From the NCBI GenBank assembly GCA_945905295.1, contig CAMDPX010000007.1, positions 1 through 62,931 on the forward strand: 62,931 nt of DNA. Direction: 5' to 3'. This document shows positions 1 through 61,033 of this stretch, piece after piece. Source of the stretch: Planctomyces sp. SH-PL62. GTDB taxonomy: Bacteria > Planctomycetota > Planctomycetia > Planctomycetales > Planctomycetaceae. The notes beneath the pieces are model-generated. The model was not told where the DNA came from. It searched no databases and was given only the letters and a program-made list of their open reading frames with translations. How positions within the stretch are numbered: position 1 is the first letter of the stretch; every line of letters begins with the position of its first letter. The translations under genes were made by a program, and so were the position numbers.

Positions 1-57
1 CCCGGTTTGTGCGGAATCGTCACGACTCACCGGGGGGCTGACGCCGCCCCGCTCGCC
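1..57. repeat. Palindromic element PAL-A, right half, inside rnr
   Basis: The right arm (29-57, ending CCGCCCCGCTCGCC) and the inner end of the left arm (CCCGGT at 1-6) are present; the rest is beyond the window edge. The same 29-bp arm occurs at 26946-27034, 30111-30182 and 60927-61004. Here it is translated on the minus strand as SGERGGVSPPV within RNase R. Confidence 0.85.
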
Positions 58-1317
58 GGAATGCTGGGCGATCAACGGCATCACTTCTTCATACGCGAAG
101 CGCTGCGTGACTTTGATCGCCGACTTGGCGAACTCGGTGTGGACGGGGATGCCGTCGGGAGTGAACTCGATGAAGGCTGAGTTCGTGTATCGCACTCGGC
201 CTTGTTGCAGACTGGCGAGGCCGTTCGAGATGACTTCCGGCAGCATGGGCAGCACGCGCGTCGGCAGATAGACGCTGGTGCCGCGTCGGCGTGCTTCTCG
301 ATCCAGCACGCTGCCGGAACGGACGAAGTGGCCGACATCGGCGATGTGAACTCCCAGAACCCAATGCCCGACTTCGTTGCGCTTCAGCGAGATCGCATCG
401 TCAAAGTCACGAGCGTCAAAGGGGTCGATGGTCAGGATCGTTTCGTTTGTCAGATCGAGTCGGCCGCGCAGGTCGGTTTCATCGAATCGCTCCGCTTGCC
501 GAGCCGCTTCCGCCAGCACTTCGGGTGGGAATTCGTCGGGCAGATTGAACTCGTGAACGATCGACTGCAGATCGACTCCCGGATCCCCTTTCGGGCCGAG
601 CACTCGCGTCAGGACTGCTTCGCCAGACTGCGAGTGGGACGGGAACCGCAGCATCTCGATGACGACTTTGTCGCCGGGTGCTGCTCCCTTCGCGCCGGGA
701 TCGCCGACCCAGATCGGGTCTTCAAAGTTGCGGCCGTCGATCTTCACGTAGCCCTGAGCGTCGAACTCATCGTAGGTGCCGACGAACGAATTGGTCGCTC
801 GCTGTGTGACCTCGACCACCTTGCCGTATGCCCGCTCTCCCTCGTGTGGCCTTCCGGCCAATTGCACAATGACGTTGTCGCCGACTTGAGCGTCTTTCAA
901 ATCGCGCGTCGCGATCGAAACCTCCTGCGGTTTCGTCCCTGCGCGATGCCCCGCCGCGTCAGCCGTTGCGATGAACACGGCGCCGCGCACGCCGATCTTC
1001 TTGATCACACCCGACAGCGAACCCGGTTTGAGTTTGTCGCCAGGACGGGGTCGGGAGTCTTTTTCCTGCGACTCGTCGAGCGACTTAGGACGTTGGCCTG
1101 CGGCATCCGTCGCAGGAAAAAGACTCCCGACCCCTTCGCCTTGCTGGTCGAGGCTCGCCACGCCGCGATGAAAAATCGCCCGCCAAGCGATGAGGAATTC
1201 CTCGAAGTCGCGCTTGCGAATGCCCAGCCGCTTGGCGACATGCTTCGGCTCCAGCTTCCGAGCATTCGGCCGCGAGTGGATGTAATCGGTGATGAGGTCT
1301 TGAAAGAAGTTGGACAT
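1..1317 (-). CDS. rnr: Ribonuclease R (RNB-family 3'-5' exoribonuclease), 3' part missing
   Basis: The gene is open from the ATG at 1317 to the window edge (439 codons, no stop), so the C-terminal part lies outside. RNase R degrades structured RNA processively from the 3' end. The N-terminus (MSNFFQDLITDYI) has a winged-helix-like start. Cold-shock/OB segments follow (KIDGRNFEDPIWV near residue 200), then the RNB catalytic core with the Asp-rich motif TIDPFDARDFDDAIS near residue 300, the metal-binding signature of the family, and GVHIADVGHFV. Two palindromic elements are translated in frame: residues about 62-90, and residues from about 421 reading GERGGVSPPV. Family identification is firm. 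The insertions are seen directly; whether they affect activity is unknown. Confidence 0.9.
   Translation of the reverse strand, partial: MSNFFQDLITDYIHSRPNARKLEPKHVAKRLGIRKRDFEEFLIAWRAIFHRGVASLDQQGEGVGSLFPATDAAGQRPKSLDESQEKDSRPRPGDKLKPGSLSGVIKKIGVRGAVFIATADAAGHRAGTKPQEVSIATRDLKDAQVGDNVIVQLAGRPHEGERAYGKVVEVTQRATNSFVGTYDEFDAQGYVKIDGRNFEDPIWVGDPGAKGAAPGDKVVIEMLRFPSHSQSGEAVLTRVLGPKGDPGVDLQSIVHEFNLPDEFPPEVLAEAARQAERFDETDLRGRLDLTNETILTIDPFDARDFDDAISLKRNEVGHWVLGVHIADVGHFVRSGSVLDREARRRGTSVYLPTRVLPMLPEVISNGLASLQQGRVRYTNSAFIEFTPDGIPVHTEFAKSAIKVTQRFAYEEVMPLIAQHSGERGGVSPPVSRDDSAQTG
1047..1134. repeat. Palindromic element PAL-G, in frame inside rnr
   Basis: Perfect 26-bp inverted arms (1047-1072 and 1109-1134; left arm begins GGGGTCGGGAGTC) enclose a 36-nt loop. 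The minus-strand rnr frame stays open through it (GVGSLFPATDAAGQRP...EKDSRPRP). It falls between the N-terminal helix-turn-helix region and the cold-shock domains, a linker that would tolerate extra residues. Confidence 0.9.
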
Positions 1318-1328
1318 TGTGACGGTGA

Positions 1329-1724
1329 TCACTTCGTTGGACGCCGTCGCGAATCGAAGGCGTCTTTGCGGTTGAGTTGCAGGTGGTATTCGGTGGCTCG
1401 ACCAATGGCGGTGAGCGGGATGATGCGGCCCCGTTTCAAATGAAAATGCTTGTGCCAGTTGTCACGGCGTGGATTGAACAAGCGAACGATGCGGCCGGTC
1501 TCTAAGTCAATTGACGACAAATCGCAGCTTTTGAGTCGATTACAGGTGAAACATGCCCAAGCCAAATTCAACAGAGTTGTTTCACCGCCGTGCCGCCTCG
1601 AAAGGACGTGATCTGGCTCATGGGCAAAGACAGCGTCTCGCTCATGCACGAGACAGTATTCGCAACGAAAGCCAGCACGTTTTTGGAGTTCCCGTCGCAT
1701 CGAAGCAGGGACTCGCTGGCTCAT
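1329..1724 (-). CDS. HNH endonuclease
   Basis: A 131-residue protein with a compact HNH/beta-beta-alpha-metal nuclease motif: CEYC near residue 19, EPDHVLSRRHGG near residue 36 (the His-containing first strand), then NLAWACFTCNRLKS near residue 53 supplying the Asn, a second CxxC and the final motif residues. The four cysteines probably bind a structural zinc. It starts inside the stop of the upstream small gene (ATGA overlap at 1721-1724), so the two are probably translationally coupled. Stand-alone HNH proteins of this size are common in planctomycetes and cyanobacteria. The substrate is unknown: defence, homing and repair are all possible. Confidence 0.85.
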   Translation of the reverse strand: MSQRVPASMRRELQKRAGFRCEYCLVHERDAVFAHEPDHVLSRRHGGETTLLNLAWACFTCNRLKSCDLSSIDLETGRIVRLFNPRRDNWHKHFHLKRGRIIPLTAIGRATEYHLQLNRKDAFDSRRRPTK

Positions 1725-2002: not shown

Positions 2003-2048
2003 CGTGAAAGCTCCTTGGCGGTACATTCTCGGAGCCGTCTCGCGAACT

Positions 2049-3989: not shown

Positions 3990-4034
3990 TGCGAATCGGC
4001 GTCCTTCGGGAGATGGGTCGTAAATGTTTCAAGT

Positions 4035-4101
4035 GCCCGACGAATTGAAGGAGACGACGAATGGAAGAGACCCATTCGTCGTCTCCTTCAATTCGTCGGG
4101 C
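4035..4101. repeat. Palindromic element PAL-B between selB and a sulfatase
   Basis: Perfect 30-bp arms (4035-4064 and 4072-4101; left arm begins GCCCGACGAATTGAAGGAGA) with a 7-nt loop. Related copies lie at 50493-50566 and 55216-55284. It sits between two co-directional minus-strand genes, 11 bp after the sulfatase stop, so it could act as a terminator or a 3' RNA stabiliser. Confidence 0.9.
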
Positions 4102-4112
4102 TCCTTCTGAAA

Positions 4113-5603: not shown

Positions 5604-5678
5604 GGGAGGCATCCTTAACGACAGATCAAGCAACTCATGACGCAGACCGGAGGGTGCAAAACGGCAATTCCACCGGCA

Positions 5679-5777
5679 GGGGTCAGGCACCGCAAAACTC
5701 AAAATTGGCGGATTGAAGTCCTGTGGACACATTCCGCGATACTTCCGCCAATTTTGAGTTTTGCGGTGCCTGACCCC
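5679..5777. repeat. Palindromic element PAL-H
   Basis: Perfect 34-bp arms (5679-5712 and 5744-5777; left arm begins GGGGTCAGGCACCGCAAAAC) with a 31-nt loop, in the gap between the glycosyltransferase stop and the sulfatase start. The minus-strand frame of the sulfatase is open through it, so an upstream start would also include it, but the ribosome binding site favours the downstream start. Confidence 0.9.
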
Positions 5778-5802
5778 GGACAAATGCTGTTATGCACCCA
5801 AG

Positions 5803-6891
5803 CTACTGTCCGGCACACACAGCTTCCAGGCAGGCGATCAATCGCGGGAGTTGGACCGTGACGGAATAGCGTTGCTCAACCGAGTTCCGCGCGGCATCCA
5901 CCACGGAGGCACGACGAACCGGTTCAGCCAAGAGTTGCCGCAGAACGAACAGCCATTCGTCGGGCGTCGTGGCCAGCCAGCCGTTGACGCCGTGGTGAAT
6001 GATTTCGGAGTTCACTCCCACCGGCGACGCGGCCGCAGGAATTCCGGCGGCCATGTATTGCAGGATCTTGAGACCGCACTTGTAGCGCGTCCAATCGGTG
6101 TCGGGCATCGGCATCAGGCCGATATCGAATCCGCAGAGATCGCCGATCTCTGTCGCTTCCGACCAGCGCACAAAGCGTGTCCGAATGCCGGCGCGGTCAA
6201 AGCCTAGTGTTCGCAGCGGACGATCCGATTCAGCGATGACACGCAATTCGAAATCAAATTCTCGCGACAGCGTCTTGAGCGGCTCACGCAGGATTTCGAG
6301 GTAGTCAATGTTCGCCGCCGTGCCCGTCCAGCCGAGGATGAGGGGCGAGGAATGAGGGGCGAGGGGCGAGTTGAAATGGCTCGTCGCTCGCCCCTCGCCC
6401 CTCATCCCTCGCCCCTGATACTTCTCCACATCGACGCACGTCGGGACCACGGTCACACGCGGATTGATCGGCCGCACACGAGTCGCCAACAAATCGTTGC
6501 CGGCGATGACCTGATCGCTCAGCCCACAGAGCACCTCGAACTTGTGGCGGTCGAGAACGAACAGCCCATCGTCGATGTCCAGCACCAGTCGGCGAGCGAT
6601 CCCGCGCAGCTCTTGTTCGAGGTCACAGTTCCCGTCGCTGAAGAGTTCTCGTTCCAGGACGATGACGTCCGGCGACCAACGTTCCAGCGCGGCGAGATCG
6701 CGCCGGCGATTCCAGCGCTTGACGAGACCGCTCCACCGAAATCCCAACAGAGGCAGCGAGCTGTACTTGTCGGGACGACTCGGCAGGACGAGGCACTCGT
6801 GGCCGAGACGCTGCAGATGCGGCACGAACTGCAACACCCGAAAGCGGCTGCTGGGCACAAAACGCCCCGAAGTGAGGAATGCGAGTCGCAT
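5803..6891 (-). CDS. Glycosyltransferase, GT4-like
   Basis: A 362-residue GT-B fold glycosyltransferase. The N-terminal acceptor domain starts MRLAFLTSGRFVPSSRFRV, with an LDIDDGLF segment near residue 104. The C-terminal nucleotide-sugar domain has LGWTGTAANIDYL, the GLMPMPDT segment, and KILQYMAAGIPAAASPVGVNSEII, the GT4 donor-binding EX7E-like region. Residues about 159-184 (MRGEGRATSHFNSPLAPHSS) are encoded by a palindromic element inserted between the two Rossmann domains, exactly at the interdomain linker. The acceptor and sugar are unknown; an exopolysaccharide or lipopolysaccharide role is likely. No cognate cluster is adjacent. Confidence 0.85.
   Translation of the reverse strand: MRLAFLTSGRFVPSSRFRVLQFVPHLQRLGHECLVLPSRPDKYSSLPLLGFRWSGLVKRWNRRRDLAALERWSPDVIVLERELFSDGNCDLEQELRGIARRLVLDIDDGLFVLDRHKFEVLCGLSDQVIAGNDLLATRVRPINPRVTVVPTCVDVEKYQGRGMRGEGRATSHFNSPLAPHSSPLILGWTGTAANIDYLEILREPLKTLSREFDFELRVIAESDRPLRTLGFDRAGIRTRFVRWSEATEIGDLCGFDIGLMPMPDTDWTRYKCGLKILQYMAAGIPAAASPVGVNSEIIHHGVNGWLATTPDEWLFVLRQLLAEPVRRASVVDAARNSVEQRYSVTVQLPRLIACLEAVCAGQ
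6341..6416. repeat. Palindromic element PAL-I, in frame inside a glycosyltransferase
   Basis: 30-bp arms (6341-6370 and 6387-6416) with one mismatch and a 16-nt loop. The arms are built from AGGGGCGAG-type units. It is read in frame in the GT4 gene at the linker between the two GT-B domains. Confidence 0.9.
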
Positions 6892-7085
6892 CTGTGGAAT
6901 GACTCCAGGTGCCGGATGGAAGGGTTTTAAGGAATGTAGTACCGAATCGACTCCAGAGATCGACTTCTGATCGAAGTCAAATCTGCTTCATTGAATTCGA
7001 GCCTGAGTTCGGTAGGCTGTTGCCAGTTGAATCGGTCGCGTCAACTGATTCGGTCGTAGGAAAAACATCAAAAAGGAAAACAACC

Positions 7086-8030: not shown

Positions 8031-8092
8031 TCAGCAACCATGCGTTCGGGCTTCTCACACGCGAGTCGTCCCGGAGAGACATGCCACTGCAT

Positions 8093-11450: not shown

Positions 11451-12992
11451 TCACGCAATCGCTTTCGTCACGACGTTCCCGCGAGTGCCGGTGATGCGTT
11501 CCTCCAAGCCCTTGTAGAAGAACGTCAGGCGTTCGTGGTCGAGCCCCATGAGGTGCAGGATCGTGGCGTGTAGGTCGGAGACGTGGCACGGTTCGTCCAC
11601 GGCGGCGAAGCCCAAGTCATCCGTCGCGCCGATGGCTTGGCCGCCGCGAGTGCCGGCTCCGGCGAGCCACATGGAGAAGCCGTGCCAGTCGTGGTCGCGG
11701 CCCGGTTTGTTGACTCCCTCGCTGGTCGGAGTGCGGCCGAACTCGCCGCCCCAGACGAGCAGCGTTTCATCCCACAGGCCGCGTTGCTTGAGGTCGGTCA
11801 TCAACGCGCCGATCGGTTGATCGGTCTCGCCCGCGTGGATCGTGTGGTTGCTGATGCAGTTGTTGTGGCCGTCCCAAGTGTCCTCGATGTGCCCGCCGCC
11901 GGAGTACAACTGGATGAACCGCACGCCCCGCTCGATCAGCCGCCGAGCGATCAGGCATTTGCGTCCGAAGTCCGCCGTGCGAGCGTCGTCCAGGCCGTAC
12001 ATCTCCTGCGTCTGCCGCGTCTCTTGCGAGAGATTGACGACGTCCGCCGCCGTCGTTTGCATCTGATACGCCAGCTCGTAGGAGAGGATGCGTGCGACGA
12101 GTTCGGAATCCCCGTAGGTTGGGTTTCCAACCCGACCCTCTTTGAGAGATAAAGAAGACTGGTCGGGTCGGAGACCCAACCTACGGCGGGCAAGGTGCTC
12201 GCGGTTCAGCTCGCCGAGCAGGTCGAGCGACTTGCGTTGCGTCCGATCGGAAACTCCCGCCGGCGTCGCGAGGTCCAACAGCGGCGAGCCCTGACTGCGA
12301 AACAGCGTCCCCTGATAGGCCGCCGGCATGAACCCGCCCGTCCAATTCGACGCACTGCCGATCGGTCCGCCGCGTGGATCGGTCATCACCACGAAGCTCG
12401 GCAGGTTCGCGTTCTCGGTGCCGAGGCCGTAGCTCAGCCACGCTCCCAAGCTGGGCTTGCCGATCAACACGCTGCCGGTATTCATCTGCAAGCACCCCGA
12501 CGCATGCGCCGCCGTGTCCGCGTGCATCGACCGAATCACGCAAATGTCATCCGCATGTTTCGCCGTGTGAGGAAACAAACTGCTGATCGGCAACCCGCTC
12601 TCGCCATGTGGCCGAAACGGAAACGGCGACTTCATCAAATACCCAATCGGCCGCCCGTTCGACCCGACCTTCGCCTTCCCGGCGTACGCCGTCCCATGAA
12701 ACTTGTCGAGCATCGGTTTTGGATCAAACGTGTCGACTTGCGAAGGAGCTCCATTCATAAACAGAAACACGCAATGCTTCGCCCCACCAAAATGCGGAGC
12801 CTTCGGAGCCAGCGGATGCATTCCTGCCTCACCGCCGGCTGCCTCATTCGCACGCGTGTCGTTCGCAAAGAACCGATCTCGCGACAAGAGATCAATCAAT
12901 CCGAGACCTGTGAAGCCCCCACCGACTTCCCACAAGAACTCGCGCCGAGTCCGCCCGCAGGGAGTCGCGTTTGGAATGAAGCGATCAAGCAT
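11451..12992 (-). CDS. DUF1501 family protein (second copy) with in-frame palindrome
   Basis: A 513-residue DUF1501 protein. The N-terminus GRTRREFLWEVGGGFTGLGLIDLL is a Tat-type signal. Domain motifs are FMNGAPSQVDTFDPKPMLDKFHG, SGLPISSLFPHTAKHADDICVIRSMH and GGEFGRTPTSEGVNKPGRDHDWHGFSMWLAG near residue 425. Residues about 270-293 (RRLGLRPDQSSLSLKEGRVG) come from a palindromic element and have no counterpart in the other two copies. This subfamily usually follows a DUF1549/DUF1553 gene; none is adjacent here. Confidence 0.9.
   Translation of the reverse strand: MLDRFIPNATPCGRTRREFLWEVGGGFTGLGLIDLLSRDRFFANDTRANEAAGGEAGMHPLAPKAPHFGGAKHCVFLFMNGAPSQVDTFDPKPMLDKFHGTAYAGKAKVGSNGRPIGYLMKSPFPFRPHGESGLPISSLFPHTAKHADDICVIRSMHADTAAHASGCLQMNTGSVLIGKPSLGAWLSYGLGTENANLPSFVVMTDPRGGPIGSASNWTGGFMPAAYQGTLFRSQGSPLLDLATPAGVSDRTQRKSLDLLGELNREHLARRRLGLRPDQSSLSLKEGRVGNPTYGDSELVARILSYELAYQMQTTAADVVNLSQETRQTQEMYGLDDARTADFGRKCLIARRLIERGVRFIQLYSGGGHIEDTWDGHNNCISNHTIHAGETDQPIGALMTDLKQRGLWDETLLVWGGEFGRTPTSEGVNKPGRDHDWHGFSMWLAGAGTRGGQAIGATDDLGFAAVDEPCHVSDLHATILHLMGLDHERLTFFYKGLEERITGTRGNVVTKAIA
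12113..12185. repeat. Palindromic element PAL-J, in frame inside a DUF1501 gene
   Basis: 25-bp arms (12113-12137 and 12161-12185; left begins CGTAGGTTGGGTTTCC) with two mismatches and a 23-nt loop. The right arm contains a GGGTC-GGA-GACCC hairpin. A related half-element lies at 15452-15475. It is translated without a stop in the DUF1501 frame. Confidence 0.9.
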
Positions 12993-21675: not shown

Positions 21676-22080
21676 TTAAAGTAGACGAGTCACTCCGTGA
21701 CTCGAATCGAGTCACGGAGTGACTCGTCTACAATGTGCGGCTCTGCGGCAGGGTTTGCTGGACTCGACAAAGTGCGTTGGGTTGAGCGACTTTGTGGCTT
21801 CCTCACACCGGGGGTTTTGAGTCGGAAAACGCCTGTTGACACGATTTCAAAGAATAGTCAACAATCGCCGCCGTGCTAAAGCTGGTAGCTTGGCTCAATG
21901 CGAACGACCCAGATAACCGATAAGCCAGATAATCGATAAGACAGTTAAGCTCGCGAAAGTTTGCCAGCAACGTTCGCCATCGTCAGCACTGCGAAGGACA
22001 AGGAAGTCTCACCGCATCCGACCGGCTCTCAGAGGACTGAGACATCAGGCGGATCGGCCAGTCAAAAGGATGGATGCCTG
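21676..22080. other. Intergenic region between mnmG and the response regulator
   Basis: About 400 bp without a gene. It holds the palindrome at 21681-21731, a TTGACA at 21836-21841 with only a weak -10 downstream, an inverted pair GTTGAC/GTCAAC (21835-21840 and 21857-21862) and an imperfect tandem repeat of AGATAACCGATAAGCC near 21912-21942. The promoter of the two-component pair is probably here; the TTGACA is the only candidate I can point to. Confidence 0.4.
21681..21731. repeat. Palindromic element PAL-K after mnmG
   Basis: Perfect 25-bp arms with a 1-nt loop, starting GTAGACGAGTCACTCCGTGA. Each arm contains the hairpin GAGTCAC-TCC-GTGACTC. It starts 5 bp after the mnmG stop and could double as its terminator, although no U-tract follows. 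Confidence 0.88.
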
Positions 22081-24871: not shown

Positions 24872-24933
24872 CGCTCGTAGTGACCCGATTTATCGGGTCG
24901 CTCTCGACCCCATAAATGGGGTCACTACAAGCG
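24872..24933. repeat. Palindromic element PAL-D between convergent genes
   Basis: 29-bp arms with three mismatches. The left arm holds GACCCGATTTATCGGGTC and the right arm GACCCCATAAATGGGGTC, each a perfect 8-bp hairpin. A second copy lies at 29066-29137. It lies 13 bp after the lyase stop. Confidence 0.88.
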
Positions 24934-26945: not shown

Positions 26946-27034
26946 AGGCGAGCGGGGTGGCGTCAGCCCCCTGGTGGTCCGATATCAGCACCAAGACCGG
27001 GGGGCTGATCCGCCGCGGCGGACCCCGCTCGCCT
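26946..27034. repeat. Palindromic element PAL-A between divergent glycosyltransferase and queA
   Basis: The left arm (26946-26975) and right arm (26996-27034) match the 29-bp consensus, but in the right arm CGCCG is replaced by TCCGCCGCGGCGGA, a 14-nt perfect palindrome also present (one base changed) at 41581-41594. It lies in a divergent promoter region, 35 bp before the queA start. Confidence 0.85.
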
Positions 27035-29065: not shown

Positions 29066-29137
29066 GCGCTCGTAGTGACCCGATTTATCGGGTCCATATC
29101 GCGCGTTCGACCCCATAAATGGGGTCACTACGAGCGC
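29066..29137. repeat. Palindromic element PAL-D between convergent genes
   Basis: 29-bp arms (29066-29094 and 29109-29137), first 11 bp GCGCTCGTAGT, with the same half-hairpin pair as at 24872-24933 and a 14-nt spacer. It begins 4 bp after the methyltransferase stop and ends 3 bp before the convergent gene's stop. Confidence 0.88.
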
Positions 29138-30110: not shown

Positions 30111-30182
30111 GGCGAGCGGGGCGGCGTCAGCCCCCCGGTGATTTCACGCGCAGACCGGGGGGCTGACGCCGCCCCGCTCGCC
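30111..30182. repeat. Palindromic element PAL-A, intergenic
   Basis: A perfect 29-bp inverted repeat (30111-30139 and 30154-30182) with a 14-nt loop, 72 nt in all. It lies in the gap between the phosphatase start and the TIR protein stop. It is the best-preserved copy in the window and serves as the consensus for the other three. Confidence 0.92.
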
Positions 30183-44649: not shown

Positions 44650-44934
44650 TTGATCGGAACCGCATTTAGGATCCACAGCACTGTCGGACTCGTGCATACG
44701 ATTGCAGCCGTACTCGCTTTACTGGTTGGCCTCTTGATCTTTCTCCGCAAGAAGGCGGGTGCGCTGCACCGGTTCCTTGGGTATGTTTATTCGCTGTCCA
44801 TGCTGGTGATGCTCATGACCGCTCTTTCGATCTATCGACTGAGCGGCTCTTTCAATCTGCTTCACGGTTTCGCTCTCTTCAGCACACTGCAATTAGGCCG
44901 AGGTCTTTACCATGCCGTCTCGCTGACAAAGTAG
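44650..44934 (+). pseudogene. DUF2306-like membrane protein, short and probably truncated
   Basis: 94 residues from a TTG start at 44650, with no clear ribosome binding site. HTIAAVLALLVGLLIFLRKKAGALHRFLGYVYSLSMLVMLMTALSIYRL and the segment LLHGFALF match the N-terminal part of DUF2306 proteins. Family members normally continue for several more helices. The reading frame ends in STLQLGRGLYHAVSLTK and the stop codon (TAG at 44932-44934) is part of the palindromic element that begins at 44931. Either a short family member or a gene truncated by insertion of that element; I favour the latter weakly. Confidence 0.55.
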
Positions 44935-45006
44935 CCTGACTCTCCGAGTCGGGACTGATCGGTTAAAAGACGCCGCAGAAGTCCCCGACTCGGAGAGTCA
45001 GGCTAC
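44931..45006. repeat. Palindromic element PAL-C, ending a DUF2306 gene
   Basis: A perfect 23-bp inverted repeat (44931-44953 and 44984-45006; left begins GTAGCCTGACTCTCCGAGTC) with a 30-nt spacer. Each arm holds a GACTC-TCC-GAGTC hairpin. Copies occur at 51945-52007 and 60155-60318. It provides the stop of the gene before it and lies 12 bp before lpxK. Confidence 0.9.
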
Positions 45007-46083: not shown

Positions 46084-46162
46084 CGTAGCCACGCTCGCCA
46101 AGAACGTGGGTTTCAGAACGTCGAGCCAATTTGTCCCCACGCTCTTGGCGAGCGTGGCTACG
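46084..46162. repeat. Palindromic element PAL-L between lpxK and pyrK
   Basis: 27-bp arms (46084-46110 and 46136-46162; CGTAGCCACGCTCGCCAAGA at the left end) with one mismatch and a 25-nt loop. The right arm contains a CCACGCTC/GAGCGTGG hairpin. Confidence 0.88.
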
Positions 46163-46205: not shown

Positions 46206-47183
46206 ATGAATCAACCCGCCTTTCCGCCGTGCTCTGCGTTGCAAGCGACCGCTCGCGTGGTCGAGCAAGAGCAGATGGCTCGCAACACGTTCCGGCTGCG
46301 ACTTCACTGCCCGGAGATCGCTCGCCGCATCATCCCCGGCCAGTTCTTTATGGTCCGTCCGGCGCGTGGAAGCGACCCGTTGCTCGGTCGGCCATTCGCT
46401 CTGTTTGATACCTACGATGATGAGCATGGACAGCCAGTCGGTTTCGATTTCGGCTACGTGACAGTCGGCAAGCTCACGGGGTTGATGCCCCGTTGGAAAG
46501 TCGGCGACGAAGTCTCTGTCTGGGGCCCGCTCGGCAACGGATTCCCGGTGGTGCCGGAGGGAACGAAGCACTTGATGTGCGTCGCGGGGGGCATTGGACA
46601 GACGCCGTTCCTGGCGGTCGCACGCGAGTTGTTGATGTCGCGGAGCTATGGAACGCCACCGCGCGCTCGGCGCGGGTCTCCCGACCCCGCCGCTGATCTG
46701 GACCGCAGGTCTCCAGAATCTGGCGACGCTTTGGGAGACCTGCGGTCGGCGGATGCGGCGGGGTCGGGAGACCCACGCCGAGCGCCGCTGAAAGTCTCGC
46801 TGTGCTACGGCGCTCGTTCGGCCGATTACCTCGCGGGGTTGGATCAATTCGCGATCGACGGACTCGATGTCCGATTGGCGACCGACGATGGCAGCCGAGG
46901 TCATCACGGATTTGTGACGGAGTTGCTCAAGCAATCGCTGAGTTCCGACTGTCCTCCGGACCTGATTTACTGCTGCGGGCCGGAGCCGATGATGCACGCG
47001 GTACAGAAGATTGCGACAGCGGCAAACGTCTCCTGTTGGCTCTCGCTGGAGACGCCGATGGCCTGCGGTATCGGCATCTGTTTCAGTTGCGTGGCCAAGA
47101 TTCAGCAAGACGATGGCGAGTGGGACTACCGACGGACATGCCTCGAAGGTCCCGTCTTTCCGGCGGCGAAAGTTGTGTTCTGA
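46206..47183 (+). CDS. pyrK: Dihydroorotate dehydrogenase electron transfer subunit PyrK-like
   Basis: 325 residues from the ATG at 46206. The FAD-binding barrel (residues about 15-110) has [22 protein letters not shown], with the FAD-contacting RPFAL. The NAD-binding half begins [20 protein letters not shown]. Cysteines of the C-terminal [2Fe-2S] cluster are in [28 protein letters not shown]. Residues 153-193 are encoded by a 41-codon nested palindromic element (46663-46785) inside the NAD-binding domain, just before [10 protein letters not shown]. No pyrD is adjacent, so the partner dehydrogenase is encoded elsewhere. Confidence 0.9.
46663..46785. repeat. Nested palindromic element PAL-M, in frame inside pyrK
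   Basis: The outer 31-bp arms (46663-46693 and 46755-46785) have one mismatch; inside them, a second perfect 14-bp pair (46701-46714 and 46734-46747) is centred. Total length 123 nt, exactly 41 codons. It is read without a stop in pyrK. Confidence 0.9.
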
Positions 47184-47297: not shown

Positions 47298-50200
47298 ATG
47301 TGGAAGACGATCTCAAGGTGTCTTGCAAGCGTGACCTTGATCGCTGTTGGATTCAACGTGATCGCGCAGGACAAGCCGTCACCGCTCGAACAAGGCAAGT
47401 CGCTCAAAGAGCTCATGCCGCGAATTCCGGCGACCGAGATCAAAGACGCGATTAAGACGTTCCAAGTCGAGCGTGGCTTCAAGCTGGAACTCGTCGCGGG
47501 CGAGCCGCTGGTCGGTGATCCGGTTGATGCCTGCTTCGATGAGTTCGGCCGAATGTACGTTGCCGAGTTCCACGGATATCCGTACTCGGCCGAGCCGACG
47601 AAATTGCATCCCAAAGGTGGTGGCAAGAAGAACGACGGCATCATCCGGTTGCTGGAAGACACCGACGGCGACGGCAAGTTCGAGAAGAGCACCGTCTTCG
47701 CCGACAACTTCGAGTGGGCGTTGTCGGTCTGCTGCTTTGACTGCGGCGTGTTCGTCATCGGACATCCGCATTTGTGGTACTTCAAGGACACCGATGGCGA
47801 CGGCAAGGCGGATGTTCGCAAGATCGTGCTCACCGGTTTCGGCAAAGACAACGTGCAAGCGTTGGCGAACAACTTGAAGTGGGGCTTGGAGAATCGCATC
47901 CTCGTCGCCGGCGGTCGCAATCCGAACGCTCTGACGCGAGACGGCAAGCCGGTGATGTCGGGGACCAGCGATTTCTCATTCGATCCACGAGTGCTGCTAC
48001 GTAGCCGTCACGCTCCGCGTGACGAGCCGAACGCTCCAAAAGACTCCCCATCTTCTGCGACGCCGAAACAGAATGACGCCAACTCTTCATCGGCTCGTCA
48101 CGCGGAGCGTGACGGCTACGTAGACGGCATCGAACTCCTCAGCGGCGGTGAGCAGTTCGGGCATTCGACGGACGACTGGGGCAATCGCTTCGTCTGCAAC
48201 AACAGCAATCACATCGAGCACGTCGTCCTGCCGCGCCGATATGTGAATCGCAATCCGACGTTCATTGCCGGCGGGACGGTGCGCAGCATTGGGGCTGAGG
48301 GAGCTGCCGCAACGGTCTTTCGCCGCAGTCCGCCGGAGCCGTGGCGGATTGTTCGGACCGCGCGGCGCGTGGCCGATCCGAAGTTCGCGGGTCTACCGCA
48401 AAGTGAGCGAGTCCCCATCGGCTTCTTCACGTCGGCCACGGGCGTGACGATCTATCGGGGTGGAGCGTACCCCGAAGAGTTTCGCGGCAACGCCTTCATC
48501 GGCGATGTCGGCGCGAATCTGATTCATCGCAAGATCATGACGCCGACCGGAGCCAGCTTCGTCGCCAAACGAGCCGACGAAAACACCGAATTCGTGACCT
48601 CGACCGACAACTGGTTCCGGCCTGTGAACTTCGTCAACGCGCCGGATGGGACGCTGTATGTGCTCGACATGTACCGCGAGACGATCGAGCATCCCGCCTC
48701 GATTCCCGAAGACATCAAGGCGATGGTCGATCTCGAAAGCGGCCACGATCGGGGACGTATCTGGCGGTTGGTCGGTCCCGACGGTCAACGAATGAAAGTC
48801 GAGCCGATCGGCAAGTTGCCGCCGGAGCAGCTCATCAAGCAGTTCTGGTCGCCAAGCTCGTGGAACCGCGAAACCGCGCAGCGGCTGTTCGTCGAACGAG
48901 GCGACTTATCGGTCGTCCCGTCATTGCGTCGCATGGCGGCCCTGAATCGTTCGCCGCTCGCGCGATTGCATTGTCTCTACACGTTGGCCGGTCTCAATGC
49001 GATGAAGTCGGACGTGCTGATGGTGAACCTCAAGCATCCCGAACCGCGCTTGCGAGCACATGTGTTGCGACTGGCCGAGCCGCTGTTCGCACAAGATCGA
49101 GAACTGGCCGAGGCCGCCGCCGAACGAGCGACGGACGACAGCGACCTCGTCCGCTGGCAACTGGCGTTCTCGGCCGGAGAGATGCCGAATGATCTCGCGG
49201 TCGCGACGCTCAGCCGATTGGCTCGCGATCCGCGCAACACTGGTGACATTCGCACGGCGATGATGACCTCGCTGAGCGGTAAAGCGACGGCGTTTCTGGA
49301 AGCTCTTGCCGGCGATGCTGAGTTCGCGAAGCAGGCACACGCTTCTGGTTGGTACACGGAGCTCGCACGGATGCTGGGCACCGATGCGAATCCCGCCGCA
49401 GGTGCGAGTGTTTTGAAGATCGTCGTCAACGACCAACTTGCTCCGGCCGCTCGGTCGGCGATCTTGATCGCATTGGGTGATGGACTGCGGCGTCGCGGGA
49501 TGACCATTGAACGCCTGCTGGACGCGGCTCAATCCGACAGCCAGCTCCGGCAAGCGTTGACCCTCTTCACAAGCAAGTCGCTGACCGCCGCGAAGGATGC
49601 CGAGCGTCCGATTGCCGAACGAGTCGCCGCTGTGCGAGTGCTGGCATTTCTCGATTGCGCCTCGTGCCGCCAGTCGTTGGGCGAACTGCTCAACCCGCAG
49701 GTCGATCCGCAATTGCAGATCGCGGCGGCGAACTCGCTGGGCCAATTGGGACATGCCGAGGTGCCGAGCTTGTTGCTGACTGGTTGGCGAAGTCACTCGC
49801 CCGGCCTGCGTCGCGAGGTGGTCGATGCGCTGCTCCGTTCAACCGATCGAGTCGGCTCACTGCTTGACGCTCTGCAAGCCGGTACGGTGCTGCGCGGCGA
49901 GATCGAACGGGACAAGAAAGATTTGTTGCTCAATCATCCGAAGTCGGAACTGCGCGACCGTGCGAAGAAGCTGCTGGCTGGCGACGTCGATGCCAATCGA
50001 GCAAAGGTCATCGCTGACTACAAACCGGCGTTGGATACTCCCGGCGACATCGCAAGGGGGAAGTTGCTCTTCCAGCAGAAGTGCGCGAACTGCCATCAGA
50101 TCGCCGGAGTCGGCCACGTCGTCGGGCCAAACTTGCAGAGCGTTGCCAATAAGTCGACTGCCGATCTGTTGATCGCGATCCTCGATCCGAATCGAGAGGC

Positions 50201-50465: not shown

Positions 50466-50492
50466 TGACGTTGCCTTCATGGAAGGGAAAGT

Positions 50493-50566
50493 GCCCGACG
50501 AATCGAAGGAGACGACGAATGAGGGGCTCGGCCAAACCATTTGTCGTCTCCTTTCATTCGTCGGGC
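50493..50566. repeat. Palindromic element PAL-B between convergent genes
   Basis: 29-bp arms (50493-50521 and 50538-50566) with three mismatches and a 16-nt loop. It lies between the stops of the PVC cytochrome gene (50465) and the DUF1552 gene (50573), so it could act as a bidirectional terminator. Confidence 0.85.
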
Positions 50567-50572
50567 TCTTTC

Positions 50573-52551: not shown

Positions 52552-55194
52552 CTATTTCGAACCGAATGAACTGGAGGTGACGATGAATTGAATCAGCGAA
52601 CGCAATGTGTAGCCATTCTTTTTCGTCTCGGCGACGGCGGCTTTCACGGTCGGTTGATCGGCGATGCCAAGTTCTCGGCCAAGGGCGTAGGTCAGGAGTT
52701 TGCTGGCGAGGCAATTGAGGAACAGGTCTTCCTTCTGACGCAGCACCGTTCGCAGTTCATCGACACCGTTGATGGCGGTGCCATCGGGAAGTTTCGACGC
52801 GGCGTCGATTTTCGGATCGTTGCGTTCGATGCGGCCTTTGTAGCCGAAGCCTTCTTGGTCGCGCCATTCGCCGGAGGCGTTGAAGTTTTCCAAGGCGAAG
52901 CCGAGCGGGTCGATCTTGTTGTGGCAGCGAGCACACTGCGGCAGCGTGCGATGAATCTCCAGCCGTTGCCGCACGGTCGCTTTGTCGATGCCGGGGACTT
53001 TCGGAGCGATATCTCCCGCATTCGCGACCGGCAGGCCGGGGTCGATGCCGAGCACGTTCTTCAAGACCCACGTTCCTCGTTTGACCGGCGAGGTGCGCGT
53101 GCCGTTCGAGGTGATCGTCAGCATTGACGCTTGCGTGACGATACCGCCGCGATGCACGCCTTCGGGGACGGGAACTCGGCGGAACTCGTCGCCCCGCACG
53201 TCGGGGATGCCGTAGAACCGCGCGAGCCGTTCGTTGATGACGACGAAGTCTGAGCCGACGAAATTCAGCACGCTCAGATCGTGCTTGAGGATTTCGGCGA
53301 AGAAGGCTCGCGACTCGTCGGTGATCGACGTTTCGAGATGCCGGTCGTACTGCGGGTACAAGTCAGAAGCGGGCGGGTTTGCGCCGACCTCTCGCAGTCC
53401 CAGCCATTGGCCGGCGAAGTTGCGGACGAAGGCTTCGGACTTTTCGTTGGCGAGCATTCGGTTGACTTGAACGGTCAGCGTCTTCGAGTCTCGCAGCTTG
53501 CCGGCATCGGCGAGCTTGTTGAGTTCTTCGTCGGGCGTTGAGGACCAGAGGAAGTAACTCAATCGCGCGGCGAGTTCATGATCGGTCAGAACGTGGGGCA
53601 CGTTTTCAACGTGCCCGGCCTTTTGGCTTTGTTTGGCTTTCTGGACGGGCACGTTGGAAACGTGCCCCACTTCGGCCAAATACAGGAAATGCGGCGAGGC
53701 CATCGCGGCGATGAGCGGCGTCTTCATCGCTTGCACGAACGACGGTGAGTCAGGACGCACGAGATCGAACAACTTCAGCTTGTCCGAAATCTCCGCATCG
53801 CTGACTGGTCGCCGATACGCCGAACGCAGGAAGCGGGCGATCAATGTCTTCGCGGTCTCGCGTTCTTTCTCCTTCGACGGCAACGTGTCGCCGAGCAATC
53901 GGCGATGACTCGGCGGCGGCCATGATTCGTAGACGGGGCCTTCGATCTCGAACCAATCGACGTACAACTCCGGCCGAGCGAATACGTCGTGACCTTGGAA
54001 CCAGAAGTTTTCGAGCACTCGTGGGATTGCGTAGGCGTACTCGATTGTCAGTCCGGCTTGTTCGGTCGTGAAGCGGGCTTTGACTTCGTATTCGCGCGGC
54101 TTGTCGAGCGGCGCGTCGACGTCGAACTCGGCGAGCACTTTCGGTTGGCCGCCGAGCGTCTGGATCAACTTCAGACGGGGTGAGCCGTAGTCGTACATGC
54201 GGTCGGTCTGAAAGTGTTTCAGGTCGCGTTCGAGTCCCTCACGGTGATACTTCTCTCCTTTGGGATTCTCTTTCATCTGGTTGTCGAAGCGGTTCTGCAA
54301 CGCCTTGCGAGCGGACTCGACGACTTCTTCTCGCTTCGGAACTTTGCCGGCCGCGCGGATGCGGATGATGTAGTCACCCTCGTGCTTGAGGGCGTAACCG
54401 CGAGCGTTCAGGTGCTTGTCCCAGTTGTCGTGGTGCAGCACTTTGAAGCCGTCTTTGACAGGGTTGTTGCCGCCGTTCACGATCACGTTCTGCTTGTCGT
54501 AGATCTTGCGGTTCGAGTCGTTGTCGCCGCTGTCGATTTCGAATCGCCATTTAATGGCCGGTGGTTGGTCTCCTTCGACGAGGACTCGATCCAAAATCTT
54601 CCGAGCGGCATCGAGGTAGAGTTCCGTGAGTAGCGGCGACATCGTCAGCGCTTTGCCGTTGTTGTCGAATCCGCCGGAGGCTGGGTCGAGCGGGAACGGA
54701 GCGACGTCGAAGTCGATGCCGATCAAGTCGCGGATCGTGTTGCGGTATTCGTCGCGATTGAGCCGACGCAAAACGATCTGACCATCGCGGCGGATCAGTT
54801 CGGCACGCACCATTTGGTCGATGATCCAATCGACGACCTTCGCGACCTCGTCCGGTTTTGGCTGCGGCTCTCCTTCGGGGGGCATCTCGTGGCTGTTGAG
54901 GACGTTGACGACTTCGCCCCATTTTTCTTTCGAGGCCGGATCGACAAACTCGTTCTTCAGATGCTTGTCGACGCGGAAGGTGCCCTGTTGCTTCGCCGGG
55001 CCGTGACACCGCACGCAATGGGTTTTCACGAATGGGGCGACGATCTTGTCAAAGCCCGCTTGATCGGTGGGATTCGGCGAGCGTTCTTGTGCGCGGCTGG
55101 GGATCGTCGCCAACACGATCGGTAGCGCGAGGAATAGATGTCGGATAGCAGATCGGTGTTCGTGGTTGATTCGATTTGGGTTCATCTGTTGCAT
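52552..55194 (-). CDS. DUF1592 family planctomycete cytochrome-like protein
   Basis: An 880-residue exported protein. Signal peptide [17 protein letters not shown], then a cytochrome-like [14 protein letters not shown] site near residue 58. The domain series DUF1587 ([21 protein letters not shown]), DUF1595, DUF1592 ([19 protein letters not shown]), DUF1588 ([27 protein letters not shown]) and DUF1585 (C-terminal [19 protein letters not shown]) follows the standard order. Residues about 509-534 come from a palindromic element ([25 protein letters not shown]). It probably pairs with the DUF1552 protein downstream; the function is unknown. Confidence 0.92.
53593..53670. repeat. Palindromic element PAL-E, in frame inside DUF1592 gene
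   Basis: 24-bp arms (53593-53616 and 53647-53670; GTGGGGCACGTTTTCAACGT at the left end) with one mismatch, and each arm is itself a GGGCACGTT/AACGTGCCC hairpin. Total 78 nt, exactly 26 codons. The left arm is identical to that of the copy inside 60173-60265. Confidence 0.92.
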
Positions 55195-55215
55195 GCCAGT
55201 AATTCAAGGAAGGAA

Positions 55216-55284
55216 CCCGACGAATCGAAGGAGACGACGAATGAGACAAATGGCAGCATTCGTCGTCTCCTTCGATTCGTCGGG
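55216..55284. repeat. Palindromic element PAL-B between CotH and DUF1592 genes
   Basis: Perfect 28-bp arms (55216-55243 and 55257-55284) with a 13-nt loop, lying between co-directional minus-strand genes, 22 bp before the DUF1592 start. Confidence 0.9.
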
Positions 55285-55310
55285 ATCTTTCTGTTTTGGT
55301 TGTCGATGTC

Positions 55311-56969: not shown

Positions 56970-57069
56970 TCGACACCTCCGTGGGGGGCATCGTAGCGGA
57001 GTCGTCGGTTGTGGGTCAGTTCGTGATGCCCAGAACTGAAACTGCCGCGCGGGTGAAAATGACGCAAAC

Positions 57070-57182
57070 CCCACCGAGATTGTCTCGGTGGTTTTTGGGC
57101 TTTTGCACTACGCGGCATGTTGCCCCAAGGGCCTTCACTCGTAGTGCAAAGGCCCATTTCCACCGAGGCAAGCTCGGTGGGG
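57070..57182. repeat. Palindromic element PAL-F upstream of the CotH gene
   Basis: Arms of about 42 bp (57070-57111 and 57140-57181), with several mismatches. Each outer end is a CACCGAG/CTCGGTG hairpin and the inner parts share a TTTGCACTAC-type segment. A half copy lies at 23588-23655. It spans the gap between the CBS gene stop and the CotH start. Confidence 0.8.
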
Positions 57183-57209
57183 ATTGTGCCAACTTCACCG
57201 GTGAGCGGT

Positions 57210-58150: not shown

Positions 58151-60340
58151 TTACGGCACGTCGCGCCAGAAGAGGACTCTCCAGCGATAGCCGGACGGAT
58201 CGTTGATCGACGTGATGAGGTTTGACGGCGGAACGTAGCCCTTAAACAGCGGCAGGCTGTCGCGGAACTTGACGCCGGTTTGAGGTCGGATGTGGGTGAC
58301 CGGTTCCAGCGGCAGGCCGACGCTCTCCCACGGACTGCCCCAGCCGTTGTAGTTCAACGGGTCCGCGACCCAGGTCACGAACGGCGTGATCGGCTGATTG
58401 TTGTTGGCTTGAATCTGCGTGATCAGTTGCCACAGCGAGTATTGATTGGTCCACAAGCCCGAACTGAGCTTCCACGAACTGGAGACCGAAATCAGCGAGC
58501 GTGTGGCCATCAGCGGTCCACGCACGTCGAAGCTGCGAAGTCGTCTTCGGCGGATGCGGTAGCTGACGGGGTTGGGACGACTCGCTTCCCCCAAGACGAT
58601 CAGGCGGCGGTTGACCGTATCGACGTCGATGATCGAGAACCAGTTGCCGCTGTTCCCTTCCGCCAGCCAGATGGCGTGCGTGCCGGTCTCGCTGACGCTG
58701 GACAGGTCCGTGGTGGCGGGGAGTTGCACCTGGCTATACGGCTGCCGGATCGGAACGCTCGTGGCTTGCGTCCCCGCCAGAGTCAACTCGGTGCCGGAAA
58801 CCAGTTCGTAGCTGCCATCCGTTTTGCTAATCGTGCTGGTCAGCAGCACGGCTCCGTCCACCGACGCCCTGTTGTCGTTATTCAACTGGATGCTCTGAGC
58901 CACCACTGCCGGCAGGCGTGGAAACAGACTGCCGTTGGCGACGATGGAACCTCCCGACGAGTCGCGCCAATTCACGCTGGCGATGTTCAAGTTGGTGCCG
59001 CTGAACGTGAGCTTGCCGGAACAGACCAGCGTCCCTTGGATGAAGACGTTGTCGTCAAGCTGCAACGCGCTGTCGCGATAGAACACTCCCAGCGGATTGC
59101 GCAGCGATGGACGCAGCACAACCTTGCTGAGCGAGCTACTGTTGATCACTTCGGCCGAATAGGTGAAGCCCCCTTGGTAAAGCTGGTACGTTTTCCAACC
59201 GTCAAAGTTGATCGTGGGAGTTGTCGGCGTGCTGGTGGCCGTAACCCGCGGGACGTTGAGATTGGTCAGGTCTGCCAGTTCGGCCGCCGTGAAGCTGGCG
59301 GCCATCGTGATCGAACCGCCGAATGGATGCGGATGCAGAAACGAGACGGTGCCGCCGCTTCCGGTGGAGTACAGCGTGCCGGTCGATTGCAGAAACACAT
59401 CGCGAATGGAACTGTTCCACTTGGGGCCTTTGTAAACTGAGACCCCTTGCTTCAGCCAAATGGGCCCGTCGAAGCGCTGGCCGGGTTCCAGCGTCAGCGA
59501 GGGGCTGCTGCTGCTTCCGTCGGAGGCGAAAAACGCATAGTTCTGAATCGTGTCGTAGCCGGCATTGCTGGCGAGGACATCGGTGGCTTGCGTGATGTCC
59601 GGAGCGAGGATCTGCCGGCCGGGGACGCGCGGTTGCAGTTCGATCCCGACTTCCACGATCTCGGTGACGAAGTCGAGCGGATCGGTGAGCGAGGCCCATT
59701 TGCCGGTCGAGCGGATCAGCAATTGAAACGCCTGCCGCGTGGCGATCGCCGCCGTGTCCGCGCTGCTGGACGACAGACCGTTCGACGTCGAATTGAAGAA
59801 TGCCGAACTGCCGCTCAGCGACGTTTGACCTTTGCCGGTTGGATAGGCCGACGGCGACGTCTGGCCGTCGATGGTACGGAACTCGATCGTGTAACTGGTG
59901 GTTCCCAGCTTGTCGCTGCTGAGCGTTCCGGAAAGCGCTGTCGTCACGCCGCTCCACGCGGAGGACTGCAACTGGTTGAGAGTGATCGACGCTCCGGACT
60001 CCGCCGCCTGCCGAGCCATCTCCTGGCGATTGACGTTCTGCCGTACCTGCACGCCACGCGCTTGCGAACTGAGTGCGGCATACGTCAGCGCCATGCTCAT
60101 GCTGATGGCGATCATCACGACCACCAGCGACACACCTCGCCGTGAACACACTCCGTAGCCTGACTCTCCGAGGCTGTGAGTAAATGGCGTGGGGCACGTT
60201 TTCAACGTGCCCAATCGGCTTATTTTCGAGCACGTTGAAAACGTGCTCCACGAAAACTTCACAGCCTCTCCGAGTCGGGTGTCCGGCACTTTTGTCCCGA
60301 CTCGGAGAGTCAGGCTACGAAATCGCAAGTTGCGTCTCAT
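58151..60340 (-). CDS. Prepilin-like protein (PilX/GspK-like), last gene of the pseudopilin operon
   Basis: 729 residues from the ATG at 60340, with GAGAGG 5 nt upstream. The prepilin motif RRGVSLVVVMIAISMSMALTYAAL appears at about residue 67, much later than usual, because residues about 8-62 come from palindromic elements. The rest is beta-rich with no recognised catalytic motif (a large globular region typical of GspK/PilX-type minor pseudopilins). It follows the GspH-like gene with a short gap. If processed by prepilin peptidase, the palindrome-encoded stretch would be removed with the leader. Confidence 0.8.
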   Translation of the reverse strand: MRRNLRFRSLTLRVGTKVPDTRLGEAVKFSWSTFSTCSKISRLGTLKTCPTPFTHSLGESGYGVCSRRGVSLVVVMIAISMSMALTYAALSSQARGVQVRQNVNRQEMARQAAESGASITLNQLQSSAWSGVTTALSGTLSSDKLGTTSYTIEFRTIDGQTSPSAYPTGKGQTSLSGSSAFFNSTSNGLSSSSADTAAIATRQAFQLLIRSTGKWASLTDPLDFVTEIVEVGIELQPRVPGRQILAPDITQATDVLASNAGYDTIQNYAFFASDGSSSSPSLTLEPGQRFDGPIWLKQGVSVYKGPKWNSSIRDVFLQSTGTLYSTGSGGTVSFLHPHPFGGSITMAASFTAAELADLTNLNVPRVTATSTPTTPTINFDGWKTYQLYQGGFTYSAEVINSSSLSKVVLRPSLRNPLGVFYRDSALQLDDNVFIQGTLVCSGKLTFSGTNLNIASVNWRDSSGGSIVANGSLFPRLPAVVAQSIQLNNDNRASVDGAVLLTSTISKTDGSYELVSGTELTLAGTQATSVPIRQPYSQVQLPATTDLSSVSETGTHAIWLAEGNSGNWFSIIDVDTVNRRLIVLGEASRPNPVSYRIRRRRLRSFDVRGPLMATRSLISVSSSWKLSSGLWTNQYSLWQLITQIQANNNQPITPFVTWVADPLNYNGWGSPWESVGLPLEPVTHIRPQTGVKFRDSLPLFKGYVPPSNLITSINDPSGYRWRVLFWRDVP
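60155..60318. repeat. PAL-C with a nested PAL-E insertion, inside the prepilin leader
   Basis: A PAL-C element, interrupted. Left arm GTAGCCTGACTCTCCGAG at 60155-60172, then an insertion at 60173-60265, then CTCTCCGAG again at 60266-60274 and the rest of PAL-C to 60318. Removing the insertion and one CTCTCCGAG gives an uninterrupted PAL-C of 62 nt. Confidence 0.85.
60173..60265. mobile_element. MITE-like insertion flanked by a 9-bp direct repeat
   Basis: A 93-nt unit with 7-bp terminal inverted repeats (GCTGTGA...TCACAGC), inside which is a PAL-E core (60189-60251). CTCTCCGAG is present at 60164-60172 and again at 60266-60274, the expected footprint of transposition with 9-bp target duplication. 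The insert plus duplication is 102 nt, a multiple of 3. Confidence 0.75.
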
Positions 60341-60349
60341 GCGGTCCTC

Positions 60350-61033
60350 TCAGAAGTTGGGCATCGTGAGATTGGCGGGATAGGACAGCACATCGCCGAC
60401 GCTGACGGCCCCTGTGATCCACGACACCGTAATCAGGATGCTGCGGCGATTCGTTCCGGAGTTCTCGGCCAGCCAGATGACGGTGTCTTGCGTGCGCGTG
60501 GGACCGGTGCCTCCCGACGGTGTGAATGTCAGATCGACGACCGCCCCCTTCGACGTCTTCAACGCCGCACCGCCGAGGACGACATGCGATTGTTTCATCC
60601 GCCCCGCGCCGAACGTGTCGAGATCAATCGTGCTGCCACTGCCGCTGTGTGCCAGAACGTTGACCATTTCCGGAGCACTGCTGCCGATCGGCTTGGTTTG
60701 ATACGAATTGTTCGCCAAGTCGAACGTGACCGCGAAGTTGCCGTTGTATTGCACCGCCGATTGCCGCGCGCCGCGAATGTCCGCAGCCAGACAGCGCGCC
60801 ATCGCCTCTAACGTGACCGCTCCGCTCGTTGAACTCAGCGTTGGAACAATCACGGAGGCCAAGATGCCGACGATCGTCACCACGATCAGCATTTCAACCA
60901 GCGTGAAACCGGCGCTTCGACACTTCGGCGAGCGGGGCGGCGTCAGCCCCCCGGTGGTCACGATCGACACTGAAAACCGGGGGGCTGACGCCGCCCCGCT
61001 CGCCAGTTTCTTCGTGGAACAATTACGGCTCAT
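60350..61033 (-). CDS. GspH/FimT-type minor pseudopilin
   Basis: 227 residues from the ATG at 61033, with GAGG 8 nt upstream; the start overlaps the preceding gene's stop. MSRNCSTKK is followed by a palindrome-encoded stretch (residues about 10-36) and then RSAGFTLVEMLIVVTIVGILASVIVPTL, the class III signal peptide motif. DIRGARQSAVQYNGNFAV is the GspH-type core. The leader before G|F is about 42 residues, longer than the usual 6-30. A GTG within the element is possible but has no ribosome site. Confidence 0.87.
   Translation of the reverse strand: MSRNCSTKKLASGAASAPRFSVSIVTTGGLTPPRSPKCRSAGFTLVEMLIVVTIVGILASVIVPTLSSTSGAVTLEAMARCLAADIRGARQSAVQYNGNFAVTFDLANNSYQTKPIGSSAPEMVNVLAHSGSGSTIDLDTFGAGRMKQSHVVLGGAALKTSKGAVVDLTFTPSGGTGPTRTQDTVIWLAENSGTNRRSILITVSWITGAVSVGDVLSYPANLTMPNF
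60927..61004. repeat. Palindromic element PAL-A inside a prepilin leader
   Basis: A perfect 29-bp inverted repeat (60927-60955 and 60976-61004), 78 nt, exactly 26 codons. On the minus strand it is read as ASGAASAPRF...TGGLTPPRSP, a different frame from that used in rnr. Confidence 0.92.

Follow-up and report, generated by a model that had tools for sequence, protein, structure and literature searches.

Descriptions of in-frame palindromic insertions in genes have so far treated them as an oddity, found in Rickettsia and certain species rich in REPs. The portion of PMC3733652 available to us describes in-frame intragenic REPs of the GTAG and CGTC kinds in several species (2013), proposes that intragenic REPs may sit in flexible linkers or loops, reports that two Xanthomonas species differ in the REPs found close to a site in recB, and places the Rickettsia elements RPE-4 and RPE-6 in the CGTC branch of REPs. 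For R. conorii, the accessible text of a review (PMC10969869) gives 44 integrations of Rickettsia palindromic elements (RPE) in genes in the first report.

Here, we analyze the palindromes of a single stretch of DNA, 62,931 nt long and referred to as the window (positions 1 to 62,931 of contig C7 of genome G000), together with a sample of the genome that contains it (8.6 Mb, 476 contigs, 97% complete). Eleven congeners (G001 to G011) were used for comparison, and G012 provided a sample of another genus. The proteins that host these palindromes include RNase R, HrpA, PyrK, and a large polyketide synthase. From one congener to another, a site can be filled, empty, or differently filled. The kind of element is already known: it is REP/BIME (REPIN-like).

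Palindromes within the genes of the window

A preliminary description of the window had reported at least nine palindromes that are read in frame within genes. Palindromes do lie at those positions, and we recovered repeats at 1047-1134, 6341-6416, 12112-12186, 46663-46785, 47997-48123, 53593-53670, 60188-60252, and 60927-61004. In-frame reading is supported for seven of the nine listed; the palindrome at the contig end in rnr is cut and is backed by relatives, and the one in pil1 is doubtful. The features are listed below, with the Pfam matches by which the hosts were named in parentheses.

1 to 57, minus strand: F0 unit (16-57) in rnr, RNB domain (RNB), truncated where the contig ends; this site is the re-used RNase R slot
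1047 to 1134, minus strand: F2 dimer in the N-terminal part of rnr; only in G000 among 10 aligned
6341 to 6416, minus strand: F35 element of the GAGGGGCGAG type in a glycosyltransferase gene (Glyco_trans_1_4)
12112 to 12186, minus strand: F7 GTAG-headed REP pair in a DUF1501 gene (DUF1501)
46663 to 46785, plus strand: F25 nested double hairpin in pyrK (DHODB_Fe-S_bind)
47997 to 48123, plus strand: F19 GTAG-containing element in a PVC-type cytochrome gene (DUF7133 and cytochrome c)
53593 to 53670, minus strand: F1 GTGG-headed pair in a DUF1592-type gene (PSD3/PSD4/PSD5), where it separates the PSD5 match from the PSD4 match
60155 to 60318, minus strand: composite, with an F1-type pair (60188-60252) nested in arms of the 44931-45006 type
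60927 to 61004, minus strand: F0 dimer in the prepilin-like gene pil2 (N_methyl), within its N-terminal leader region

Positions 16-57 form one unit of the family that also occurs at 30111-30182 and 60927-61004. At three sites, alignment with empty orthologues gave the net gain. The F7 pair of DUF1501 is present in G000, G001, G006, G008, and G010 and absent in six other congeners, with the frame intact and a net gain of 66 nt, or 22 residues; this alignment covers 11 species and leaves out G009, whose split match suggests no insert. The F25 element of pyrK is common to G000, G005, and G007 (net gain 105 nt, or 35 residues), and six congeners have a short variable linker instead. The PVC insert occurs only in G000 and is absent in all eight congeners compared; relative to seven, the net gain is 96 nt, or 32 residues. 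All three net gains are multiples of 3. These values fall below the upper end of the 24 to 55 added residues first estimated, and the earlier expectation that inserts are missing from part of the relatives holds. The preliminary description would have been refuted by relatives that share these residues as ordinary conserved sequence; congener sites are instead empty or differently occupied.

The remaining coding sites were more varied. Of the genomes aligned at the glycosyltransferase insert, G005 and G007 have similar residues and five others do not. The DUF1592 site of G006 has an F1-type pair that differs from that of the window in both arms yet still pairs, and G007 and G003 have other sequences that read as palindromes. 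The ATG of pil2 is common to G007, whose DNA there differs and is 12 nt shorter. The composite at 60155-60318 lies at or before the N-terminus of pil1 (58151-60340), covering residues 8-62 if coding. This gene has no Pfam match; six of its seven long matches in relatives start at residue 48 to 134, and that of G008 starts at residue 22 and has one stop. The first part of pil1 matches many other places in G000 (56 own matches in all), and most of the own-genome matches listed contain a stop. Judged from these alignments, it is doubtful that the composite is coding.

In the filled and empty pairs, we found no clean empty site, as approximately 15 to 40 nt around each insert also differ, and no recognizable target duplication (DUF1501, pyrK, PVC, and G010 pairs).

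Two side observations concern DUF1501 and PyrK sequences. The DUF1501 copies L169 and L170 (G002:C176 and G004:C94) are identical over the 57-nt slot region, which points to recent transfer or bin contamination, although G002 has a second DUF1501 copy on C49. The PyrK sequences of L265, L266, and L270, from MAGs titled Candidatus Kuenenia stuttgartiensis, are 80 to 82% identical to that of the window, and these titles look wrong.

Other palindromes of the window

The window has further palindromes, many of them intergenic (no strand assigned).

4035 to 4101: intergenic palindrome of the GACGAAT type
5679 to 5777: palindrome ending in GGGGTCAGGCACC, with arm sequence of the F13 type
21681 to 21731: intergenic GTAG-headed REP pair
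24872 to 24933: intergenic GTAG-containing REP pair with arms of the F10 type
26947 to 26979: single F0 unit
29066 to 29137: intergenic GTAG-containing REP pair with arms of the F10 type
30111 to 30182: F0 dimer between predicted genes
44931 to 45006: GTAG-headed REP pair with arms of the F17 type
46084 to 46162: intergenic GTAG-headed pair with arms of the F5 type
50487 to 50572: intergenic palindrome
55209 to 55291: intergenic palindrome of the GACGAAT type
57052 to 57199: nested palindrome of F3, a family that brackets the Y1 gene of L021

At 46084-46162, six of the seven congeners compared have another sequence and G009 has a similar one; at 50487-50572, all four congeners compared have other sequences. 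Several of the replacement sequences at these two sites are themselves palindromes. A pairwise comparison of G000 with G010 took in 61 repeats from four contigs and yielded anchors for 22 of them. Three of the anchored repeats are in genes (two differ, one shared) and 19 are outside genes (13 differ, six shared). Two further gene inserts of G000, with net gains of 81 and 99 nt, are absent from G010.

Element families in the genome

We scanned 1,770,099 bases in 33 contigs of G000 (20.6%) for inverted repeats, scoring +1 for a match and -2 for a mismatch and accepting a score of at least 18 and a whole repeat of up to approximately 220 nt. This 1.77-Mb sample consists of the largest contigs and hence is non-random, and decayed or single units are missed, as the scan seeks pairs. 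It contains 463 long inverted repeats (0.26 per kb), whose arms group into 39 families with at least three copies. As the preliminary description had proposed, the families are many and also intergenic, with 96 of the 463 repeats in genes. A first-order Markov copy of three contigs (360 kb) yielded 0 repeats, compared to 85 in the real sequence. Median spans are 65 to 108 nt in the 13 largest families, and the hairpin units are approximately 20 to 40 nt long and mostly arranged as inverted pairs. An Rfam scan of the window at the gathering threshold gave no match.

The F0 arm pattern occurs 467 times in G000 (reversed control, 0). Across the 12 genomes, the exact pattern was counted 483, 328, 179, 58, and 47 times in five genomes and 0 to 7 times in the other seven; it was found at all in only 7 of 87 further genomes, with a maximum of 21. 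The exact pattern is therefore nearly restricted to the genus. The sample of another genus, G012, has five repeats of score 18 or more in 100 kb, which counts against a mobile-element explanation.

GTAG lies within 9 nt of the outer end in 109 of the 463 repeats, a low share that counts against a REP/BIME explanation. By family, this applies to all copies of F5, F7, F8, F17, and F23, to 5 of 6 F19, 11 of 19 F4, and 7 of 12 F10 copies, and to none of F0 or F2. The arms of F1 start with CGTGG (GTGG head). Those of F13 and F14 start with GGGGTCAG, which fits a GGGGWSAS-like motif as in TIR-TIRYT elements; against a motif of this kind, F2 starts with GGGGTCGG (one mismatch) and F27 with GGGGTAGG (two mismatches).

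At least eight contigs of G000 start within approximately 65 nt of an F0 unit (C7:33-57, C13:30-54, C18:30-54, C23:24-48, C25:38-62, C30:39-63, C36:33-57, and C39:32-56, for example); therefore, the F0 repeat probably breaks the assembly. Elsewhere, matches between G000:C3:1-6400 and G010:C3:1-4300 are offset in steps of approximately 309 nt, which suggests a long tandem repeat.

Y1 transposase genes

Using PF01797, we found 13 Y1 genes in G000. Eight of these loci are bracketed by one family, compared to 7 of 600 random segments: F2 at L015, F7 at L019 and L020, F3 at L021, F27 at L016 and L017, F41 at L012, and F43/F60 at L018. The bracketing enzymes presumably transpose the families around them. 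The scan for bracketing covered 13 Y1 loci of G000 and 27 of congeners, out of 91 matches in the genus, and in it we found no bracketed transposase for F0, F1, F15, or F25. Across the 12 genomes, Y1 count correlates with F0 arm number (rho 0.81 and p=0.0014, uncorrected for kinship), although F0 has no known transposase here.

Reading frame of the coding copies

In the G000 sample, 96 of the 463 repeats lie within a predicted gene, at a depth of 60 nt or more, and they are spread over 70 of 1183 predicted genes. Scaled by length, this gives a rough figure of 470 coding copies per genome. Because a gene call itself requires an open frame, we used a flank test in which both flanks must be stop-free, coding-like, and on the same strand, with no need for an ORF running through the repeat. 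With flanks of 210 nt, 81 of 95 cases were in frame and 7 + 7 were shifted; the corresponding numbers were 50/3/3 for 150 nt and 94/10/11 for 300 nt, and random positions of like span gave 1026/10/18. Some of the shifted cases may be neighboring genes. In the congener G010, six cases were in frame and one was shifted (107 repeats in 400 kb). Palindrome length, which had earlier been offered as a sign of frame preservation, is a weak test: spans of repeats in genes number 39/30/27 for 0/1/2 modulo 3. Frame preservation is instead seen in the net gains, as at the three sites above.

Families differ in the share of their copies that are coding (chi2 p=8e-6, permutation p=0.0005), from 11 of 17 for F7, 5 of 5 for F25, and 25 of 65 for F0 to 0 of 13, 0 of 12, and 0 of 12 for F9, F10, and F11. 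The number of open frames was considered as a cause of these differences and rejected (Spearman 0.03, 26 families). An alternative frame is available in 92 of the 96 inserts, and the frame used is more hydrophilic than the other open frames of the element (-0.78 vs -0.50, Wilcoxon p=1.1e-6). The inserts are presumably translated in the cell. The five sampled F25 copies, all in predicted genes (window 46663-46785 and contigs C18 and C28 of G000), include two copies within one giant protein, twice.

Slots used by several families

We assigned families to slots by matching slot DNA to the arms of G000. At the RNase R slot, an inverted repeat of score 15 or more that is open in frame occurs in nine of nine relatives compared (10 of the 12 genomes, leaving out G010, with no match, and G008, with a weak match). 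The slot is filled by F0 in G000, G002, G005, and G007, by F15 in G009 and G011, by F1 in G004 and G006, and by F3 in G001; G003 has a palindrome without a family match, whose peptide resembles a decayed F0. Across relatives, then, this slot is filled by at least four families. The second rnr site (1047-1134) has palindrome-free linkers outside G000. A solved RNase R structure (8cdu) has 12 residues at the rnr slot.

In an alignment of 11 HrpA sequences, indels that reach six residues are confined to four zones. Of the 30 repeats scoring at least 14, 29 lie inside these zones; the outlier is in G001. At score 12, two more repeats fall outside the zones, both in G004. Besides unmatched palindromes, slot 1 contains F0, F6, F7, and F35; slot 2 F15, F0, and F25; slot 3 F0, F6, F3, and F38; and slot 4 F23, F30, and F1. 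Slot 1 is a palindrome-free linker in G001 and G004. The alignment leaves out G002 (distant match), and the rows of G005, G007, G008, and G001 are incomplete and do not cover slot 1 in G008 or slot 4 in G007. Slots 1 to 3 fall at gaps between the aligned stretches of the solved structure 9ggr, which we take to be E. coli HrpA and which has 5, 9, and 17 residues there.

The polyketide synthase (2,414 residues) has six slots in G000, near domain ends, which are alike, differently filled, or palindrome-free in G007, and likewise in G010 where covered. Taken over these proteins, the most unusual feature, which the preliminary description had missed, is that different species fill one site with different families. 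For PyrK, an AlphaFold model (27 sequences, mean pLDDT 82) places residues 151-190 in blocks of 43 to 73, flanked by 92 and 89; its pLDDT is also low at 1-7, 283-294, and 310-314, which counts against the loop argument. The best structure matches of this model are the PyrK structures 5ksw and 1ep1.

Explanations for the insertions

We are largely confident that these palindromes are REP/BIME-type non-autonomous mobile hairpins, kept in frame at tolerant loops, whose slots are refilled by different families. Dozens of families of such REPIN-like units, several bracketing their own Y1 (HUH) transposase gene, would insert genome-wide. Copies in genes would be kept only if the net change preserves the frame and the used frame has no stop, and retained copies would encode approximately 17 to 54 predicted residues in loops or linkers able to accommodate additional hydrophilic sequence. 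As each protein would have few tolerant places, the same slots would be filled, lost, nested, and refilled by different families across species. From these comparisons, we infer both tolerance as the cause of slot re-use and the manner in which elements replace one another. The case that mobile hairpins supply protein linkers is strong, and the elements are probably mobile. Besides the points already named as adverse, the absence of a bracketed transposase for F0, F1, F15, and F25 at the Y1 loci scanned, the unclean junctions, and the family differences in coding share count against this explanation.

A tentative and somewhat doubtful extension is that fixed addresses in conserved enzymes are shared landing pads, where families overwrite one another in frame, linkers are continually rewritten, and nesting is the replacement step. 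We consider direct overwriting unlikely. In this scenario, HUH hairpin recognition or template switching would bring an incoming element to a palindrome already in place, the newcomer would insert into it, and the old arms would decay, leaving a lasting slot with changing content. F6 is nested in F0 three times, always within genes, and repeat loops make up 0.7% of the sample. At HrpA slot 1, G000 has F0 around F6, G007 has F6 with a 20-nt F0 match at 95%, and G010 and G011 have F0 with no F6 match; at a polyketide synthase slot, G000 and G007 have F0 with F6 inside and G010 has F0 alone. Intergenic sites change content too. However, insertions and nesting would gather at the same places through structural tolerance by itself, the sample contains only the three nests, and no insertion junction is resolved.

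The mobile-hairpin reading must also be weighed against selection on the inserts and against trivial origins. Retention for useful peptides or mRNA hairpins, for example for translation pausing between domains, seems quite improbable. The position of HrpA slots 1 to 3 at structure gaps, that of the polyketide synthase slots near domain ends, and the preserved pairing of the differing DUF1592 arms in G006 are in its favor; however, recent common origin of copies can also preserve pairing, different families place unrelated peptides in one slot, and some species have none. It is very improbable that the slots are ordinary hypervariable linkers whose palindromes are accidental or were formed in place through inverted duplication. 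Such an origin would suit the palindrome-free linkers of some species (rnr site 2 outside G000, HrpA slot 1 in G001 and G004), but it is largely refuted by family membership, as the arms match many-copy families found genome-wide, and the Markov control lacks such repeats. Assembly or binning artefacts at repeats, a possibility raised in the preliminary description, are scarcely credible because the flanks agree from one MAG to another although the fillings between them differ. Several contigs do start at F0 units and the matched public records are MAGs; internal copies nonetheless have matching flanks on both sides and keep the frame.

Comparison with known systems

The closest systems are REP/BIME (REPIN)-RAYT and TIR-TIRYT, which, in the parts of PMC3733652 and PMC6006769 available to us, share with the present elements short hairpin units, inverted pairs, and several families per genome. 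Like the GTAG REPs of PMC3733652 (accessible part), F5, F7, F8, F17, F23, and most F19 copies carry a GTAG head, and the arms of F1 carry GTGG. Further likenesses to REP-RAYT in the same text are a transposase gene bracketed by its own family, in-frame intragenic copies, and Planctomycetes among the carriers. Unlike REPs, F0, F2, F6, F15, and F25 have no head motif here, and unlike in the REP reports, as far as their available text goes, several families occupy one slot across a genus, in several proteins. TIR-TIRYT elements, as described there, have TIRs with a GGGGWSAS-like motif around Y1; here, F2 and F27 bracket Y1 genes with one and two mismatches to it, respectively.

The preliminary description named the Rickettsia palindromic elements as the nearest precedent. 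They are a real precedent, with in-frame palindromic inserts of several families in unrelated genes (PMC10969869, accessible part), although the REP/BIME-RAYT and TIR-TIRYT systems of PMC3733652 are of a nearer kind. The 44 R. conorii integrations contrast with the approximately 470 coding copies extrapolated here, the phylum differs, and the comparison made here is one of description. MITEs such as ERIC and QMITE1/2 are likewise short non-autonomous inverted repeats, some of which overlap ORFs (PMC5896051 and PMC10969869, available portions); unlike them, the present elements are short, are built of self-hairpin units, and have no recognizable target duplication.

In searches of an open-access library, we found no report of slot re-use across a genus. 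Among the accessible parts of PMC3733652, PMC6006769, PMC10969869, PMC5896051, and PMC8049555, a similar remark appears only in PMC3733652, for Xanthomonas recB. The elements described here make it possible to test mobile DNA as a source of linkers, the filtering of insertions by frame and hydrophilicity, and a preference of REP transposases for existing hairpins. As far as searches of that library go, what is new is the scale, the many headless families, the hydrophilic-frame bias, and the slots used by multiple families across a genus.
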